A stretch of DNA of 38,048 bases, from assembly GCA_016787925.1 (NCBI GenBank), contig JAEUSK010000053.1, positions 1-38,048 on the forward strand, read 5' to 3'. Below are positions 1-10,246 of this stretch, one piece after another; positions within the stretch are counted from its first letter, which is position 1; each line of letters begins with the position of its first letter. The notes under the pieces are model-generated. The model was not told where the DNA came from and searched no databases. It worked only from the letters and a program-made list of their open reading frames with translations. The stretch comes from a bacterium (GTDB lineage: Bacteria; CLD3; SB21). Made by a program: the position numbers and the translations under genes.

Positions 1-27
1 AGCGGACGTGTAAGCCGCTTGTTATCT
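1..27. repeat. Right half of a truncated attC-like site (site 0)
   Basis: The first bases match the right arm of the complete sites further on: AAGCCGC (12-18) followed two bases later by the core GTTATCT (21-27). The left half lies outside the window, so the array very probably continues upstream. If cassettes are oriented leftward, as their genes suggest, this would be the recombination site belonging to cassette 1. Confidence 0.7.
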
Positions 28-39
28 GACGGCGTGCCC

Positions 40-645
40 CTATTTTTCGAAATCCAAATTCATTGGCGAAGATGGCAACTGATTGGCCTGATTTTTCAAA
101 TCTGTAGTAGGAACACTCAGATCAACGACTTCAAATTTAATGTCATCAAACCAAATCTTTCCTGTGCCGTCTAACAGAAAACCAAAAGCAATGTTGCTTG
201 CGTTCGCGGAAACGTCTAATACAATTTCACATTTTGTCCAATCCGTTGTTCCTTTAATAGAACGATTACCCATGTTATCAAACGCTAAGGATTGGGTCGG
301 ATTAGCCTTGTCATCCACTCTCATCCACATGGAAGACCAAGTTTTGACGTCTTCCGTTTTGATGAATCCGGTCATACGAACACGCTTACCAAAATACATA
401 TCCGCCTTAAACGTCTGCATCATTGTTCCAAAGCCCTGGATGGTAGGCTGATTAGAGCGGACAAATGCACAGCTTGATCCTGAATGAGCAACTTTTAGAT
501 CCTTACCCATATCGTAATCATTTGGTTTACTTCCCGCTGCATGCCAACCCTCTGGCATTGTAGATTGATCAGCGAGGAAGGCATAGCCCGCCACGGTGAG
601 AACTAAAGTTGTAATGCCTGCGATTAGCAAAGATTTCGTCTTCAT
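40..645 (-). CDS. Cassette 1: exported beta-sandwich (carbohydrate-binding-like) protein
   Basis: A 201-residue protein with an N-terminal hydrophobic signal or anchor segment (about residues 5-25). The body has the look of a CBM4/9-like jelly-roll: alternating strands, a GTTDW motif near the middle, and 'GTGKIWFDDIKFEVV' near the end, a phrase I recall from jelly-roll sensor domains attached to AraC-type regulators. A strong AAGGAGG precedes the ATG. The gene fills its cassette almost completely: 49 bases separate its start from the core ending at 694, and its stop is about 13 bases from the core at 21-27. It reads leftward, away from the recombinase at 2693-3547, as genes in integron cassettes usually read away from the integrase. 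The ligand is unknown; the fold is inferred from sequence pattern only. Confidence 0.75.
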   Translation of the reverse strand: MKTKSLLIAGITTLVLTVAGYAFLADQSTMPEGWHAAGSKPNDYDMGKDLKVAHSGSSCAFVRSNQPTIQGFGTMMQTFKADMYFGKRVRMTGFIKTEDVKTWSSMWMRVDDKANPTQSLAFDNMGNRSIKGTTDWTKCEIVLDVSANASNIAFGFLLDGTGKIWFDDIKFEVVDLSVPTTDLKNQANQLPSSPMNLDFEK

Positions 646-684: not shown

Positions 685-855
685 GTCAGATAACGCGGCG
701 CGGCTACCCGCGGTAGCTCGCACGCGAGGAAAATTAGTTAAGTTAGTACATTCTAAATCGTGAGCGAGCTATCGGCGAGCGAGTGCCACAAAAGCGTAGC
801 ATGTGGGGACTCCAAAAAGCACTCGCGAAGCGAACGGGTAAGCCGCATGTTAGCC
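685..855. repeat. attC-like recombination site A
   Basis: The outer cores are GATAAC (689-694) and GTTAGCC (849-855). The next arms, GCGGCTACCCG (700-710) and CGGGTAAGCCGC (835-846), pair fully except for one extra base on the right, the kind of extrahelical base known in attC sites. An apical stem pairs TAGCTCGC (714-721) with GCGAGCTA (764-771). A side hairpin pairs GCGAGTGC (779-786) with GCACTCGC (819-826). The apical loop is only about 40 bases, so this is the compact form of the site. No IntI-family gene is present, so attC-like is a structural description, not proof of function. Confidence 0.75.
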
Positions 856-1208
856 GATGTGGCCTCCCTGCTCGAATCACTGAAATATCAAATAATCACT
901 AAATCAAAGAACGCTGACTTTACCTGGCCTCGCTCCCAGAACCACAGCTCGACCGCCAATATAGTAACGAAGAACTCAGCGATGAGTGCGAGCGCGTCAA
1001 CTTGAAAAGTCTCGTGTATTCATAAGCGCGAGCACTGATCGCAAGAGGAAAACAAAATCAGACTCAGAAAGTATCAAACAAAGCAAAGCGAGTAGCGAAG
1101 CGCTCGCTGCTCATGCGGTCGAGCTAAATGAAAGTCGTAAAGTCAAAGAACAAAACTGTCAAACTAAGATAAGGCCAGCCGTGTATTTTTCTGGCCATGT
1201 CGGCTAAC
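850..1208. mobile_element. Cassette 2, no convincing gene
   Basis: The segment between site A and site B starts TTAGCCGATGTGGCC (850-864) and ends GGCCATGTCGGCTAAC (1193-1208). These termini are inverted copies of each other and differ from those of neighbouring cassettes 1 and 4. Both strands contain short frames, for example a GTG-started plus-strand frame ending at the TAA of the right core, but their compositions are low-complexity and no ribosome site is evident. Both ends resemble those of cassette 3 (TCAAAGAACAAAACT appears near the right end of both). It may specify an RNA or be an empty cassette. Confidence 0.55.
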
Positions 1209-1560
1209 GCTCGGCGGCTACACGCGGTAGCTCGCGCACAATTAATTAGTGTAAATCAAAAACGTAAACTGTCAAGAAATCTTCTAAGCTCTGACAGCCA
1301 AAACGAAAGTTTAATAAGAACTGATCTCGGCGCGAGGCAAAGAAGTATTCAAAACTAATTGATTCAAATCACGAAACTTGTCAAATCGAACTATCGCCTC
1401 GCGTCGAGTTACGAAATCAAAATCAAATCTTAACGGCTGTCAGAGCGACGCCTAATCAAATGGTGCGCGAGCTATCGGCGAATGACGCGCATACAAAAGT
1501 GTAGCCTGTGGGGTCTCCAAAAAGCGCGTCATGAGCGTACGTGGAAGCCGCATGTTATCT
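1202..1560. repeat. attC-like recombination site B, very long form
   Basis: Cores are GGCTAAC (1202-1208) and GTTATCT (1554-1560). Paired arms: GCGGCTACACG (1214-1224) with the imperfect partner 1540-1551; TAGCTCGCGCAC (1228-1239) with its exact complement (1463-1474). A side hairpin is formed by ATGACGCGC (1482-1490) and GCGCGTCAT (1524-1532). Inside the apical loop lie two further nested stems: GCTCTGACAGCC (1288-1299) with 1435-1446, exact, and CTCGGCGCGAGGC (1326-1338) with 1396-1408, one mismatch. The whole ~360 bp can fold as one long branched hairpin, well beyond the length I know for ordinary attC sites. Confidence 0.7.
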
Positions 1561-1739
1561 GACGTGGCCATTTTCTCGAAACACTGAAACATAAGAAACC
1601 ACTGAATCAATGAACCAAAATATCTCTGGCCGGTCGTGATTCGTCGGGCAACATGAATAAAACGTCATCATAATCAAAGAACAAAACTTTCAAACAGCGA
1701 CAAGGCCAAACGTGCGATGTTTCGGCCATGTCAGATAAC
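1555..1739. mobile_element. Cassette 3, short non-coding cassette
   Basis: This 185-base segment has inverted termini TTATCTGACGTGGCC (1555-1569) and GGCCATGTCAGATAAC (1724-1739). No reading frame of useful length or with a ribosome-binding site is visible. Its left ~60 and right ~65 bases align by eye with the corresponding parts of cassette 2, so the two look like long and short members of one non-coding family. Confidence 0.55.
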
Positions 1740-2103
1740 GCTCGGCGGCTACACGCGGTAGCTCGCGCACACAAATAAATCGTTAATTAAAAACGTAAAC
1801 TATCAAATTCTCTTCTAAGCTCTGACAGCCGAAACGAAAGCCTGAAAGAAATCATCTCGGCGCGAGGCAAAGAAGTATTCAAATCTAAAGAAATCAAAGA
1901 ACAAAACTGTATTCAAATTCCGAAACTCTTCAAATCGAACCATCGCCTCGCGTCGGGTCACGAAATTACATTTAGAACTGAACGGCTGTCAGAGCGAAGC
2001 TTAATCAAACGGTGCGCGAGCTATCGGCGAAGCGACGCCCACAAACTCTCTATCGTCAGATCAAATGGCGTCGCGTAGCGAACGGGGAAGCCGCATGTTA
2101 TCC
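1733..2103. repeat. attC-like recombination site C, very long form
   Basis: Cores are AGATAAC (1733-1739) and GTTATCC (2097-2103). Arms: GCGGCTACACG (1745-1755) with the partner around 2083-2094; TAGCTCGCGCAC (1759-1770) with 2012-2023, exact. Side hairpin: GCGACGCC (2032-2039) with GGCGTCGC (2067-2074). Nested apical stems are GCTCTGACAGCC (1819-1830) with 1984-1995, and CTCGGCGCGAGGC (1856-1868) with 1945-1957. It has the same architecture as site B, but the side-hairpin stem sequence is different and the loop between 2040 and 2066 has been replaced. Confidence 0.7.
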
Positions 2104-2364
2104 GACGGTCGGCAACTTTACAATCTTAAATGCAATTAATGGAGATTCGGGGCGGTTTGCACAAATTTCACACGCGGAATCTCCACATTGTGTTTCAAGC
2201 CAAATATCGCAATAGACACAAAAGTGCGCGTCGTAATGATCTGAATAAATGGAAGAATTATTACATTTCGGACATAGCTCGGCAATGAAGCCGCCGATTT
2301 TGATCCCATTGACTACGACATGCGGGCTATCTACCAACTCTTTTATGTCAAATTCATTTTCCAT
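2098..2364 (-). CDS. Cassette 4: small cysteine-rich (zinc-ribbon-like) protein
   Basis: An 88-residue protein with cysteine pairs CPKC (about residues 31-34), CVYC (about 49-52) and a third cluster 'CGDSACEIC' (about 60-68). The spacing fits one or two zinc-binding knuckles. No signal peptide or membrane segment is seen, so it is probably cytosolic. The stop codon TAA is made by the cassette core itself (GTCGGATAAC on the coding strand), so the boundary sequence is part of the gene. The start lies 37 bases inside the right cassette end and no strong Shine-Dalgarno is visible. The gene reads leftward, away from the recombinase. I do not recognise the family. Confidence 0.65.
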   Translation of the reverse strand: MENEFDIKELVDSPHVVVNGIKIGGFIAELCPKCNNSSIYSDHYDAHFCVYCDIWLETQCGDSACEICANRPESPLIAFKIVKLPTVG

Positions 2365-2401
2365 GACTTGTGTTTACTCTATTTGCCGACTGTCGGATAA
2401 C
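2098..2401. mobile_element. Cassette 4, recombinase-proximal
   Basis: The boundaries are GTTATCCGACGGTCGGCAA (2097-2115) and TTGCCGACTGTCGGATAAC (2383-2401), which pair at 18 of 19 positions; the exception is a G:T pair. It carries the zinc-ribbon-like gene and is the cassette closest to the recombinase, the place where the newest insertion would be expected in an integron. Confidence 0.65.
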
Positions 2402-2470
2402 GACCGTCTATACGTAATTGCGTGTGTATAACGAAAAACGGTCGGTATGCGCAATTGTGTGTGTGTTAAT
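2402..2470. repeat. Site D: candidate attI-like primary site
   Basis: This site lies between the last cassette core (ending 2401) and the recombinase gene, and its sequence is unrelated to sites A-C. It holds two imperfect direct repeats, 2405-2432 (with TATACG-TAATTGCGTGTGTATAA) and 2441-2470 (with TATGCGCAATTGTGTGTGTGTTAA), and a small hairpin GACCGT (2402-2407)/ACGGTC (2438-2443). attI sites of integrons are likewise unlike attC and carry direct repeats bound by the integrase. Identification as the primary insertion site is inference from position and layout. Confidence 0.45.
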
Positions 2471-3790: not shown

Positions 3791-3990
3791 CCCGGCCTTG
3801 ATAAAAATGACGAAGAAACCCGAGTTCGCAGCGTAACTTCTGCAAAGAACGGCTTTCATTGACGTTCAACTTCGACGAATCGTGAAGACTGAGAATCGTT
3901 TTTCGCAACCTTGGTCTGCGAACAAGGGTTTAGGCGTTTTTATCACAGCCGGAATTTTCTTTGCAACTTTCTTTTTTAAAAAGAAAGTTG
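3791..3990. repeat. Dispersed palindromic repeat, copy 2
   Basis: The order of blocks is as in copy 1: CCCGGCCTTGATAAAAATG at the left, GGGTTTAGGCGTTTTTATCA then AGCCGG at the right, and the closing small hairpin CTTTCTTTTTTAAAAAGAAAG at about 3968-3988. The centre differs from copy 1. Copies 1 and 2 bracket the recombinase gene as direct repeats. A 64-codon minus-strand frame lies across it, but nothing supports translation. The remaining bases to 4106 hold no gene; an inverted pair AACTCCCGCA/TGCGGGAGTT at 4040-4070 may be the terminator of the next gene. Confidence 0.6.
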
Positions 3991-4106
3991 AGATAGATAG
4001 GTTTTAGGAAAACAGCATCGAAAGGAAATTGTAAAAAAAACTCCCGCAAAATATGATCTGCGGGAGTTGTCAAAATTAGTAAATGTCGGCCTATGCCTGC
4101 TGCGCC

Positions 4107-5100: not shown

Positions 5101-5296
5101 CAGGCCTTTGAAAAAACGGCGTATGAAAATCGAAGCGAAAGCCCGTTAAAAACAAAACATGTCCGAGTTCGCCGGAGGCTTGCCGCAGGCGAACGAGTTT
5201 GTTTTGTTTAGGGCTGGAGCGGAGATTTTAGGCGTTTTTTCAACAGCCCTGGCACTTTTCTTTTCTTCTTTCTTTTGTGCCAGCAAAAGAAAGAAG
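5101..5296. repeat. Dispersed palindromic repeat, copy 3
   Basis: The left block CAGGCCTTTGAAAAAACGGC and the right block TTAGGCGTTTTTTCAACAGCC are inverted copies. The centre has its own hairpin, GAGTTCGCCGGAGGC/GCAGGCGAAC (about 5165-5205). The tail CTTTCTTTTGTGCCAGCAAAAGAAAG closes with a small hairpin. The stem sequences differ from copies 1 and 2, while the layout is kept. The flanking stretches 4909-5100 and 5297-5467 contain no gene that I can support. Confidence 0.6.
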
Positions 5297-5467: not shown

Positions 5468-7018
5468 TCAAATACTTCTTTGATAATCCTTGATGGGAAT
5501 AGTCCAGACGCGTTCCCCGCAAAATCGCGCGCCCTCAGGACAATACGGGCGAATGTCCGCCAAAAGGCGAATGCCGCACGGAGGCAATAAATATTTTCCG
5601 ATCTGCGGATTGATCTCAAGAATCTGTTCCGTCTCATCCACCGACGCGCGCCAGATCTCTTCCTGCGCAAGATAACATAATCGCATGGACATTTTGTGGT
5701 GCAGATTCAGCAGGTCGGACGATTCGGTAAAACGAACCGATACCGCGTTCGGAAGAAGATACATGATAAATTCTTCCGGCGCATCCAGCGTGCGGAGACG
5801 GCGCATGGCCTCCCACGTTTTGTTCATCACCTCATCGTAATATTTTTTTACTTGAGTGTCCTGTTCCACCAGAATCGGCGTGATATAATCCGGTTCGTCC
5901 GTCGCGTGCGCGATCAGCAGAGGCCTGGAACCGGGCGTCATGCGATGCCGCTGGTCCTGCGAATCCGCCGCGTGGCTCAGTTTTTTACGAAAGGTGTAAT
6001 GGGGATGAAATAGCGTGCGGGATAATTTAGATAACGTCGTCAGGTTCAGCGATTCGCCAAATAGATTATTCTTCGCAGGATCGAGAACGAGCCGGATCGC
6101 TTCGCCGTCCGATATCATGTCCTTGGTTGCGCCCAGAACTTCCCGTACGCTTTGCGCGAGCGTCGCCTCGTTGCTGTTTTTATAATCGGCTAATTTGGAA
6201 ATGCGCCCGTCCAGGCTCTGATCGAATTCATCCAGAAACGCTTGCTGTTTTTTCGCTTTGTAGTAATTCTGATGCTCCGTAAAAAAATGATATTCCGGTG
6301 TGTCCTCGAGCGGAAGTTCTTCCTGCAAAATGACGTTGTACATCGGATCCACTTTGATCAGTTCACGCACCATTTTTTCAATGACGATCTTCTGCTCAAG
6401 CGGCGTGTCAAATTGATTGGACAGCCTGTAATACCGAAGCAGGGTTATACCGCTGATGGTATGGTACATGTACGCGAACGCTGCAACGGGAATGACGTAC
6501 CGCGCGATCTCCTGGCATTTTTTTTTGATTTCGCCGGCATATTTTTCCTTTACTTTCACGCGCGATGGAAACCGTTTGAAATACGCGTCTTCCGTGACCG
6601 GGCGCAGAAGTTCATTCATCCTGCGATACGCCGCCATTTGATCATCGATCGTTTCGCGGTAAATCTTCAGCGCTTCGCCTTTGAGCGGCGGAATCAAAAA
6701 ACTGCCTTCTTTGATCTCGACGTAACGCTGGCTCACCTGTTCGGAATTATAATACGGATGGCTGTGAAGGAAACTCCAGATGAACTGGCGGGAAATATTG
6801 GCGAGCTCAAACTGAAAGTACGCGTGCGAAAAAACCGTGTGATGGCCGGCCTGGTACACGCTCTGCGCGAGCGGAAAATGTTTGTCCGTGATCTGCTCGT
6901 CCCGCACAATACCTTTGGAAGAGTAACAGGTGCGCGCCGTGGCGATCGCATTCTGAAAAGGGGTGCTGAACGATTTAGACAAAACGACGTGCGGCGCTTC
7001 GGAGAGAAAGGTGTTCAA
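5468..7018 (-). CDS. Long FAD-dependent thymidylate synthase-like (ThyX-type) protein
   Basis: A 516-residue protein, about twice the usual ThyX length, apparently with two ThyX-like halves. In the first half, 'ISRQFIWSFLHSHPYYNSEQ' followed by VSQRYVE (about residues 74-100) occupies the place of the ThyX signature RHRxxSxNExSxRY; the end (S..RY) is kept but the RHR is not. In the second half, 'HAADSQDQRHRMTPGSRP' (about 350-367) is a second, rearranged signature-like block. Canonical ThyX makes dTMP from dUMP with methylenetetrahydrofolate, FAD and NADPH. Long proteins of this kind are usually annotated as ThyX in FCB bacteria, but whether they are the working thymidylate synthase cannot be told here. 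The product is cytosolic. It is the last gene of a minus-strand series, separated from 7099-7482 by a short tandem repeat. Confidence 0.75.
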   Translation of the reverse strand: MNTFLSEAPHVVLSKSFSTPFQNAIATARTCYSSKGIVRDEQITDKHFPLAQSVYQAGHHTVFSHAYFQFELANISRQFIWSFLHSHPYYNSEQVSQRYVEIKEGSFLIPPLKGEALKIYRETIDDQMAAYRRMNELLRPVTEDAYFKRFPSRVKVKEKYAGEIKKKCQEIARYVIPVAAFAYMYHTISGITLLRYYRLSNQFDTPLEQKIVIEKMVRELIKVDPMYNVILQEELPLEDTPEYHFFTEHQNYYKAKKQQAFLDEFDQSLDGRISKLADYKNSNEATLAQSVREVLGATKDMISDGEAIRLVLDPAKNNLFGESLNLTTLSKLSRTLFHPHYTFRKKLSHAADSQDQRHRMTPGSRPLLIAHATDEPDYITPILVEQDTQVKKYYDEVMNKTWEAMRRLRTLDAPEEFIMYLLPNAVSVRFTESSDLLNLHHKMSMRLCYLAQEEIWRASVDETEQILEINPQIGKYLLPPCGIRLLADIRPYCPEGARFCGERVWTIPIKDYQRSI

Positions 7019-7572: not shown

Positions 7573-8352
7573 TCAGGTATTCGTCCACTTCGGTTTTCTT
7601 TTTTCATTAAAGGCTTTCAGCGCTTCGACGCGGTCACGCGTGGGGATAACGTCGTTGTAACATTCGTTCTCGATCTCCAATCCGTCTTTTAAGGATACGT
7701 CAAGGCCGAGGCGAACGGCTTTTTTGGCCAGGCGTATGGCGATCGGCGCGTTAGCATTAATTTCCTCAGCCAGTTTGATCGCTTCTTTGTGCAGGGTGTC
7801 CGCACCGGCCACCGCATTGCAAACGCCGTATTGCAAAGATTCCTGCGCAGTAAATATGCGCGCCGTCAGTATCCACAACAAAGCGTTGGAATAGCCGATG
7901 AGTCGGGGGAGTCTTTGTGTTCCGCCCGCGCCGGGAATGATGCCGAGCGCCGTTTCGCGTAAACTGATCTTCACGTCATCAGAAAAAATTCTAAAATCAC
8001 ATGCCAGCGCAAGTTCACACCCGCCCCCGTACGCGATGCCGTTAACCGCGGCGATCGTGGGAATTGTCAAATTGCCGATCTTGTGAATCGTTCCGCCAAT
8101 CACCTGCTTGACAAATGTTTTCACGTCGGATTCGCTCATGTTCTGCCGCTCTTTAAGATCCGCGCCGGCGCAGAAATGTTCCAGTTCGGACCGGAATATC
8201 ACCACGCGCGCAGAATGGTCGCCTTTAATATGATCGCACGCAGATGAAAGTTCGCCCAGCAAATCCCGATTGAGTGCATTAACTTTCGGGCGATTCAATC
8301 CGATCGTGATGATCCCGTTGTCGTTGGCGTAGGTGATGTGCTTAAATTCCAA
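7573..8352 (-). CDS. Enoyl-CoA hydratase/isomerase, methylglutaconyl-CoA hydratase-like
   Basis: A 259-residue crotonase-fold enzyme, full length. The oxyanion-hole segments are 'HFCAGADLKER' (about 60-70) and 'NGIAYGGGCELALACD' (about 105-120). Both catalytic glutamates of true hydratases are present: the Glu in GGGCEL and the Glu in SLRETALGIIPGAGGTQR. The stretch GADLKERxxM and the C-terminal IPTRDRVEALKAFNEKRKP closely follow human AUH, so 3-methylglutaconyl-CoA hydratase (leucine breakdown) is the best specific guess; general short-chain enoyl-CoA hydratase is the alternative. Cytosolic, possibly co-transcribed with the upstream ACT-domain gene although a palindromic repeat lies between them. 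Confidence 0.85.
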   Translation of the reverse strand: MEFKHITYANDNGIITIGLNRPKVNALNRDLLGELSSACDHIKGDHSARVVIFRSELEHFCAGADLKERQNMSESDVKTFVKQVIGGTIHKIGNLTIPTIAAVNGIAYGGGCELALACDFRIFSDDVKISLRETALGIIPGAGGTQRLPRLIGYSNALLWILTARIFTAQESLQYGVCNAVAGADTLHKEAIKLAEEINANAPIAIRLAKKAVRLGLDVSLKDGLEIENECYNDVIPTRDRVEALKAFNEKRKPKWTNT

Positions 8353-9025: not shown

Positions 9026-10246
9026 TCAACCTTTCTTAAGCTGGATGCGAATGGTCGTTCCCTGATTTATATTACTGTCCTTTACAAAAATCTTTCCGTT
9101 ATGATAATCTTCGATGATCCGCTTTGCCAGGCTCAGCCCAAGTCCCCAGCCGCGTTTTTTGGTGCTGAATCCCGGGCGAAAAATATTGTAAAAGTTTTTC
9201 AGTTCGATCCCGCGGCCGTTATCGGAGATATCAAGACAGACGCTGCCGTTTTGCAGCGAGAGATGAATTGTGATTTTTCCCTCCTGTGTGTCTATGGCAT
9301 CCACAGCGTTCTTGATGATATTTTCAATGACCCACGCAATAAGCTGCGCATTGATGAAAGGCGTGGCATTCGTCTCATACACCTCTTCTATGGTGATCGT
9401 TTTGCCCAGTTGCGGCATGCGTGTGCGGAAGTACTGCGCCAATTCCGATAACAGCGGAATCATATCGTGCTGTTTCAAATCGGATGCGGATCCGATCTGT
9501 GAAAAACGCGTGACGATGCGGTCGATCCGTTTAATGTCCACTTCCATCTCGCTGATGATGCGCAAAGTGGATTCACGGCCTTCCGCTTCTCCGCGAAGCA
9601 GTTCCGCCCATCCCATGAGCGAGGAAAGCGGTGTGCCGAGCTGATGCGCGGTTTCTTTGGCCATGCCAACCCAGATGCTGCGCTGTTCGCTCCGTTTGAT
9701 ATTGCTAAATCCGATATACCCGATCAGAATAAATGCGCCGACCACGCCGATGCCGATCACCGGCAGCCAGGCCAACTGACGGATCAGCTTGCTGTCCGTA
9801 TCATAATGTATATAACCCAGCGTCGTGTTTTCATATAGGATCGGAACAGGCGCATTATCCCGATCCATTGCTTTGATCGCCTTTTTGAGTTTTTCTTCAT
9901 TCTCTGCCGTAAGCGTATCGCCGGAGATACCCGGAATATTACGCCAGGAAAGAATGGTCGTGTCCGGCGCGGTATTGATTATCGGAAATTCAATACGCTT
10001 AATGATCTCATCAAAAATAAAACTGTATTCGCCCTCCGGATCGTCCTGCCCGATCCGCGCAATGATCTGCGTATAGATCTTTACGATGTGGCGGGAATCG
10101 TCGCGAAGGCGTTCTACGAGAAACTGAGTGTACGCCAGCGCGCCGAATATGATGACGAGCGCAAGGACGAAAAGCCCGCTTTTGAAATTAACGGTCAGAT
10201 GATACGGATTGCGTACCGTTCTGATTTGCCGTGTCGGTTCTGCCAT
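9026..10246 (-). CDS. Membrane sensor histidine kinase
   Basis: 406 residues. Transmembrane segments at about 24-42 and 160-182 enclose a ~115-residue periplasmic sensor region. The dimerisation/phosphoacceptor box is 'WVGMAKETAHQLGTPLSSL' with the phosphorylated His at 201. The HATPase domain has the N box (ENIIKNAVDAID), G1 (DISDNGRGI), F box (IFRPGFSTKK) and G2 (GWGLGLSLAKRII). The AKETAHQLGTPLSSLMGW form of the H box is typical of a kinase family in Bacteroidota and relatives. No response regulator gene is adjacent, so this is an orphan kinase here. The signal is unknown. Confidence 0.9.
   Translation of the reverse strand: MAEPTRQIRTVRNPYHLTVNFKSGLFVLALVIIFGALAYTQFLVERLRDDSRHIVKIYTQIIARIGQDDPEGEYSFIFDEIIKRIEFPIINTAPDTTILSWRNIPGISGDTLTAENEEKLKKAIKAMDRDNAPVPILYENTTLGYIHYDTDSKLIRQLAWLPVIGIGVVGAFILIGYIGFSNIKRSEQRSIWVGMAKETAHQLGTPLSSLMGWAELLRGEAEGRESTLRIISEMEVDIKRIDRIVTRFSQIGSASDLKQHDMIPLLSELAQYFRTRMPQLGKTITIEEVYETNATPFINAQLIAWVIENIIKNAVDAIDTQEGKITIHLSLQNGSVCLDISDNGRGIELKNFYNIFRPGFSTKKRGWGLGLSLAKRIIEDYHNGKIFVKDSNINQGTTIRIQLKKG

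Follow-up and report, generated by a model that had tools for sequence, protein, structure and literature searches.

The covarying hairpins at the left end of the window (the whole stretch of 38,048 nucleotides analyzed here, contig JAEUSK010000053.1 of assembly GCA_016787925.1) are part of attC-type sites in a sedentary integron of the chromosome, and these sites are quite probably the bottom-strand attC-type sites of an integron that is served by an integrase without the I2 region. The I2 helix is described as the innovation that made folded single-stranded sites usable for integron integrases, and attC recombination reportedly requires it. The I2-less integrase, which is absent from the initial annotation, is a more surprising feature than the hairpin: integrons, the folding of attC and branched attC tops are already known, and the new part is the enzyme, an I2-less integrase adjoining branched sites. 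The DNA itself provides the sites, their covarying fold, the strand on which it forms, the cassette chain, the boundary at attI, the neighboring gene without I2 and the lack of a canonical IntI in the assemblies.

At its left end, over 2.4 kb, the window holds the part of a cassette array that is nearest to the integrase; the array reads along the minus strand. The gene of the integron-type tyrosine recombinase P0001 (2693-3547, minus strand; 284 aa) points its 3' end towards the array and is followed by an attI-like region (2395-2466, minus strand) with direct repeats at 2409-2427 and 2446-2464 and the insertion point GTTAT (2395-2401). Beyond it lie the ORF of the first cassette (2098-2364, minus strand; 88 aa), the sites C (1733-2103), B (1202-1560) and A (689-855), the ORF of another cassette (40-645, minus strand; 201 aa), neither ORF having a family match, and the basal end of a further site of repeat family D4 (1-31, plus strand; motif GTAAGCCGCTTGTT), which is cut by the left edge of the window. 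Sites A (short type I), B and C (both long type III) are attC-like in the plus orientation of the window, which corresponds to the bottom strand. The start and end of each cassette are joined by inverted pairs (21-38/677-694, 842-864/1193-1215, 1547-1569/1724-1746 and 2097-2115/2383-2401), as is expected when a cassette circle carries one attC. The genome of the window contains 36 complete site copies on fragmented contigs, and throughout the three genomes of the genus the ORFs of at least 60 aa between sites have the orientation opposite to that of the sites in 56 of 59 cassettes. The initial annotation had taken A, B and C for recombination sites, and their attC-like form, the chained cassettes and the adjoining attI-like region support this. 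Two other features of the layout recur. ORF-less cassettes of 173-182 nt repeatedly come after type III sites of 351-432 nt (window 1561-1732; L048, L116, L120, L123 and L125), the two together forming a unit of about 530 nt with many recurrences. In addition, a dispersed intergenic inverted repeat flanks the integrase gene (2488-2676, 3792-3997 and 5227-5276); it has the form CCGGCCTTGA...AAAAATG / CAT...AGCCGG, then CTTTCTTTT, and similar DNA occurs in L035 and L126.

P0001 is a full-length protein whose catalytic Arg, Lys, His-x-x-Arg, His and Tyr motifs are invariant among its relatives. Comparison with TIGR02249 matches positions 2-179 and 241-315 and leaves 180-240 unmatched, with a score of 228 bits (cut-off 265). 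Likewise, the alignment of P0001 with the IntI of Vibrio cholerae (2A3V) breaks at the place of I2, and XerA (5HXY) can be aligned without interruption. When the proteins are aligned together, the I2 region measures 37 residues in P0001, 37-42 in its relatives (47 in one) and 45-46 in the genome's own Xer-like proteins, compared with 78-80 in 30 canonical IntIs; a region of about 40 residues including the I2 helix is thus missing in P0001 and 33 relatives and present in 30/30 of the canonical IntIs compared. The AlphaFold model of P0001 (mean pLDDT 79) has no extra helix at this place and matches 5HXY (Z 22.7, the best structural match) and 2A3V (Z 21.8) about equally well. In its domain layout without I2 P0001 resembles XerA/Xer, and NF040815 (XerA/Xer) scores 215.9 bits on it, narrowly below the cut-off of 220. 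Unlike Xer, however, P0001 adjoins cassette arrays and attI-like repeats, and the genome carries separate Xer-like genes elsewhere (L002 and L003). In a tree, all I2-bearing IntIs form one clade (100/100) among I2-less relatives, with a weak root and deep order; this topology allows, but does not show, that attC use preceded I2, and both gain and loss of I2 would be compatible with it.

The best-surviving alternative is that the array is an attC cluster on which a canonical IntI, lost or absent from the assemblies, acts in trans, P0001 being a Xer-like bystander. Draft, incomplete genomes could indeed lack such a gene, arrays without an integrase (CALINs) are common and have been reported where no such integrase was found (PMC9024848), and one genome (G094) has canonical IntIs beside I2-less ones. 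Against this, three genomes have both P0001 and the attI-like repeats conserved beside the array; the repeats are kept up to an identical boundary, GTTAT, and the first cassette beyond it differs from genome to genome, a signature of insertion there. No canonical IntI over the curated cut-off was found in these genomes (G000, G001 and G002, incomplete draft assemblies), nor in G069, G210 and G268, which consist of 1-2 contigs each and are 100% complete; of these, G069 and G210 carry chained cassettes. Service in trans is therefore considered unlikely, and the neighboring I2-less integrase is the better candidate for serving the array.

The side hairpin was followed in 95 complete sites from the genome of the window and two genomes of the same genus. 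All six arms that the initial annotation had reported for A, B and C lie exactly where it placed them: GCGAGTGC (779-786) and GCACTCGC (819-826) in site A, ATGACGCGC (1482-1490) and GCGCGTCAT (1524-1532) in site B, and GCGACGCC (2032-2039) and GGCGTCGC (2067-2074) in site C, all on the plus strand. In site A the hairpin stands beside an apical arm (711-721, pairing with 764-774) and a basal L stem (700-710, pairing with 835-846, with one unpaired A therein). A side-hairpin layout is found in 66 of the 95 sites, the other 29 being of type II. Far from being absent in most sites, a perfect or wobble-paired side stem occupies the same place in 63 of these 66; in 62 it was detected as a stem, perfect or with G-T wobbles, that follows the apical arm by 3-4 nt and precedes the basal arm by 9-11 nt, and the 63rd, L125, was hidden from detection by a differing anchor and was read by eye. 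One mismatch occurs in the side stem of 2/66 sites, the stem is lost in L054, an isolated chromosomal copy, and the remnant sites in G005 and G006 are decayed. In type II sites two hairpins of 8-9 bp replace the single side hairpin, which results in a four-way fold. Their loops, GCCA and TGGC, are complementary and the two local hairpins have probabilities of 0.86 and 0.84, against 0.11 for the long alternative; the perfect complementarity of these tetraloops (e.g., L046:146-352) may permit a kissing pair or a switch to one long side stem.

Among the 66 sites the side stem has a fixed place but five different sequences (GCGACGCC, GCGAGCGC, GCGAGTGC, GTGAGCGC and ATGACGCGC). Between GCGAGCGC and GCGAGTGC, and also between GCGAGCGC and GTGAGCGC, one pair differs with both sides changed, and different side stems carry near-identical loops. 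Among 22 distinct composites, from which type II was left out because its ensemble prefers two local hairpins, both-side changes affect 7 of the 8 side pairs and 97.7% of cells pair. The whole-structure covariation score of these composites is 0.309, compared with 0.107 ± 0.012 in shuffles (0/500) and at most 0.076 when slid; the side helix alone, with type II included and counted as one long side stem, scores 0.979 vs 0.218 ± 0.037. Counts were made on anchored composites because MAFFT misplaced one gap in the 3' side arm. These figures come from only five stem families and from related sites that are not independent, and the composites were cut by sequence anchors. For A, B and C folded as single-stranded DNA, comparison with dinucleotide shuffles gives z-scores of -3.1, -7.7 and -5.6, and the minimum-energy fold of each contains the side stem, whose mean pair probability is at least 0.94 in each of 61 sites tested. 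With the controls all far lower, the proposal of the initial annotation that stem covariation indicates selection on structure is borne out, as is the three-way junction that it drew for A, B and C, with the four-way variant in the 29 type II sites of the 95.

Complementarity of the stems could also arise from mutation bias, i.e., template switching in quasi-palindromes, or from replacement of whole modules, rather than from selection. Template switching can alter both arms at once, and the small number of stem families and their mostly perfect stems would suit such an origin, but the place and length of the stem are constant over the 95 sites, the same loop occurs under different stems, and wobbles are almost confined to one strand, which is not expected from such repair. 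This makes an origin by mutation bias or module replacement quite improbable and selection on the fold the preferred reading.

The distribution of these wobbles bears on which molecule is selected, which the initial annotation had left between single-stranded DNA and RNA. The bottom-strand composites contain 19 G-T wobbles vs 2 A-C mismatches; since the composites are related and only four pair positions are involved, the 19 wobbles do not represent 19 events. The fold is more stable as bottom strand in 92 of the 95 sites, with a mean gain of 3.2 kcal/mol. Together, the wobble bias and the strand preference point to selection on single-stranded bottom-strand DNA, the strand opposite the cassette ORFs, rather than on the cassette mRNA, so that the DNA half of the earlier proposal holds and an RNA role is disfavored. 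The bias also fits the known use of the attC bottom strand. That the hairpins work in cassette mRNA, e.g., as 3'-end stabilizers or terminators, is hardly credible, because, although they come after the cassette ORFs and would fold in RNA too, and some cassettes have no ORF, the 19 wobbles would turn into C-A mismatches in a transcript, folding is worse for the mRNA-sense strand, and an Rfam search gave no match.

By analogy with integrons, P0001 would act on these sites and recombination would be single-stranded. The predicted fold of the bottom strand, which is opposite the cassette ORFs and corresponds to the plus strand of the window, consists of an R box, an unpaired spacer that is lopsided (5 nt vs 2) and a basal L stem with one unpaired A, topped by a three-way junction of apical arm and side hairpin or, in type II, by a four-way junction. 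The integrase would then attach to the R/L stem of the fold, cleave the R box at AAC and join it to the attI-like site at GTT, leaving a junction for replication to resolve. The branch might stand in for I2 by providing asymmetry, by keeping the L stem closed and possibly by hindering a second strand exchange. The idea that the branch speeds or stabilizes bottom-strand folding and, together with the lopsided spacer, gives the polarity and the limitation to a single exchange that canonical integrons owe to I2 and the extrahelical bases is doubtful; against it stands the finding, from an E. coli assay, that exchanging the large branched top of the attC sites of the V. cholerae superintegron (VCR) has minor effects (PMC2727003).

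The system shares with canonical integrons an integrase that adjoins an attI-like site, a chain of cassettes whose ORFs all point the same way and which each end in an attC-like site, and, as covariation and folding predict, a bottom-strand fold with R box, unpaired spacer and L stem. In contrast to canonical integrons, the integrase lacks I2, a single unpaired A replaces the extrahelical G (R''-L'' arm) and T, the R boxes (GTTAKCY/GTTAYRC, e.g., GTTATCT, GTTATGC and GTTAGCC) do not fit GTTRRRY, and the sites are 155-432 nt long vs 55-141 for published attC. Since I2, an extrahelical G, R boxes of the consensus form and lengths within the published range were all looked for and not found, the system, which appears to work like an integron, would best be called a variant rather than a canonical member. 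The sites also resemble VCR, which likewise forms a large array on the chromosome, made up of nearly identical sites whose top is large and branched. VCR attC sites have been described as forming "a complex branched secondary structure", for which the authors allow a possible role in folding during replication (PMC2727003). Branching is consequently not unique, and the claim of the initial annotation that the fold is unlike the single imperfect hairpin of standard attC does not hold in that form. What differs from VCR is that the side hairpin covaries at a fixed place and has three- and four-way subtypes, and that VCR is served by an I2-bearing IntI and has three extrahelical bases. As in spirochaete integrons with intI directed towards the array (reverse-oriented Spirochaetota IntIs are mentioned in PMC9668308), attI and the cassettes lie on the 3' side of the integrase gene, but the spirochaete enzymes count as IntIs, defined by the additional domain that P0001 lacks.

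Relatives of P0001 at 38-63% identity likewise lack the I2 region. Cassette-like chains adjoin L142, L135, L143, L157, L159, L037, L039, L041, L137 and L139, of which the first five are strong, single chain calls being subject to a noise level that shuffles reveal. L142 has three cassettes with both hairpins (zero in shuffles), chain-bearing I2-less loci include cultured Cognataquiflexum strains, and an I2-less integrase with a cassette chain is also found on a plasmid of Chryseobacterium (L196). In the genome of L142 and in two Cognataquiflexum genomes no IntI exceeded the cut-off. Branched sites are predicted in L142 (two strong hairpins), L157 (three hairpins, with stems that differ between its two sites), L137 and L196 (7950-8107), this recurrence outside the genus consisting of folding predictions for few sites. 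In L196 the stretch 7924-8107 would form a strong three-way junction with two long hairpins, and its start motif occurs again near 10019 and 12437. I2-less relatives in Bacteroidota and other lineages also adjoin chained cassettes, with some sites predicted to be strongly branched. In the same scan the L stem usually has paired bulges in canonical-IntI loci (e.g., L174, L175, L176, L180, L183 and L187) and lacks them in most I2-less sites; bulge-free L stems are what one would expect if I2 and its ligand were absent together, but the sample is small. Two generalizations were rejected, namely that all I2-less systems are branched, as several Bacteroidota sites are predicted to be long single hairpins that are not clearly branched, and that there is no extrahelical base at all, as the genus of the window keeps its unpaired A; both observations would count against the preferred explanation. 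Second, more distant I2-less integrase genes occur in G002:C33 (L134) and G004:C10 (L135), with an in-frame TAA flagged in the match or frame; L135 lies near its own short cassette chain. G094 (L137, L139 and L175), with canonical IntIs and two I2-less integrases with cassette-like sites, is a place to study cross-use.

A chicken-and-egg problem has been posed for the origin of integrons: how could selection have favored I2 when there were no attC sites, or attC sites when there was no I2 (PMC4792948)? Cassette arrays that adjoin I2-less integrases are obvious candidates for this missing state and open the question to direct testing. They could, possibly but with the balance somewhat against it, represent a widespread integron class in which folded bottom-strand attC sites are recombined by integrases that never had I2, junction branches and the lopsided spacer replacing I2 and the extrahelical bases, so that attC recombination would predate I2. 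No integron with an I2-less integrase was found in the one open-access library searched. Surveys pick IntIs by the additional domain (PMC2426708, PMC9668308), and because detection by IntegronFinder requires an IntI-specific profile (PMC9668308), I2-less systems would be counted as CALINs or missed.

The I2-less family also borders resistance genes. In the complete genome G069, the first cassette after the I2-less integrase (L143, 5438-6348) carries an ORF (5471-6334) for an AadS-family aminoglycoside 6-adenylyltransferase (NF033387, 518.6 bits, cut-off 450). On an Acinetobacter baylyi plasmid (L194, 2967-4988) and on plasmid pHH1107 (L195, 6070-8200), an I2-less integrase gene, annotated as TnpF or tyrosine-type recombinase and with an apparently short N-terminus, lies directly upstream of tet(X3). 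Between the two genes lie attI-like repeats, and tet(X3) is followed by DNA like the first half of a Bacteroidota attC; from this arrangement, tet(X3) may once have been a cassette of an I2-less integron. A similar integrase gene is present on about 50 Acinetobacter plasmids.
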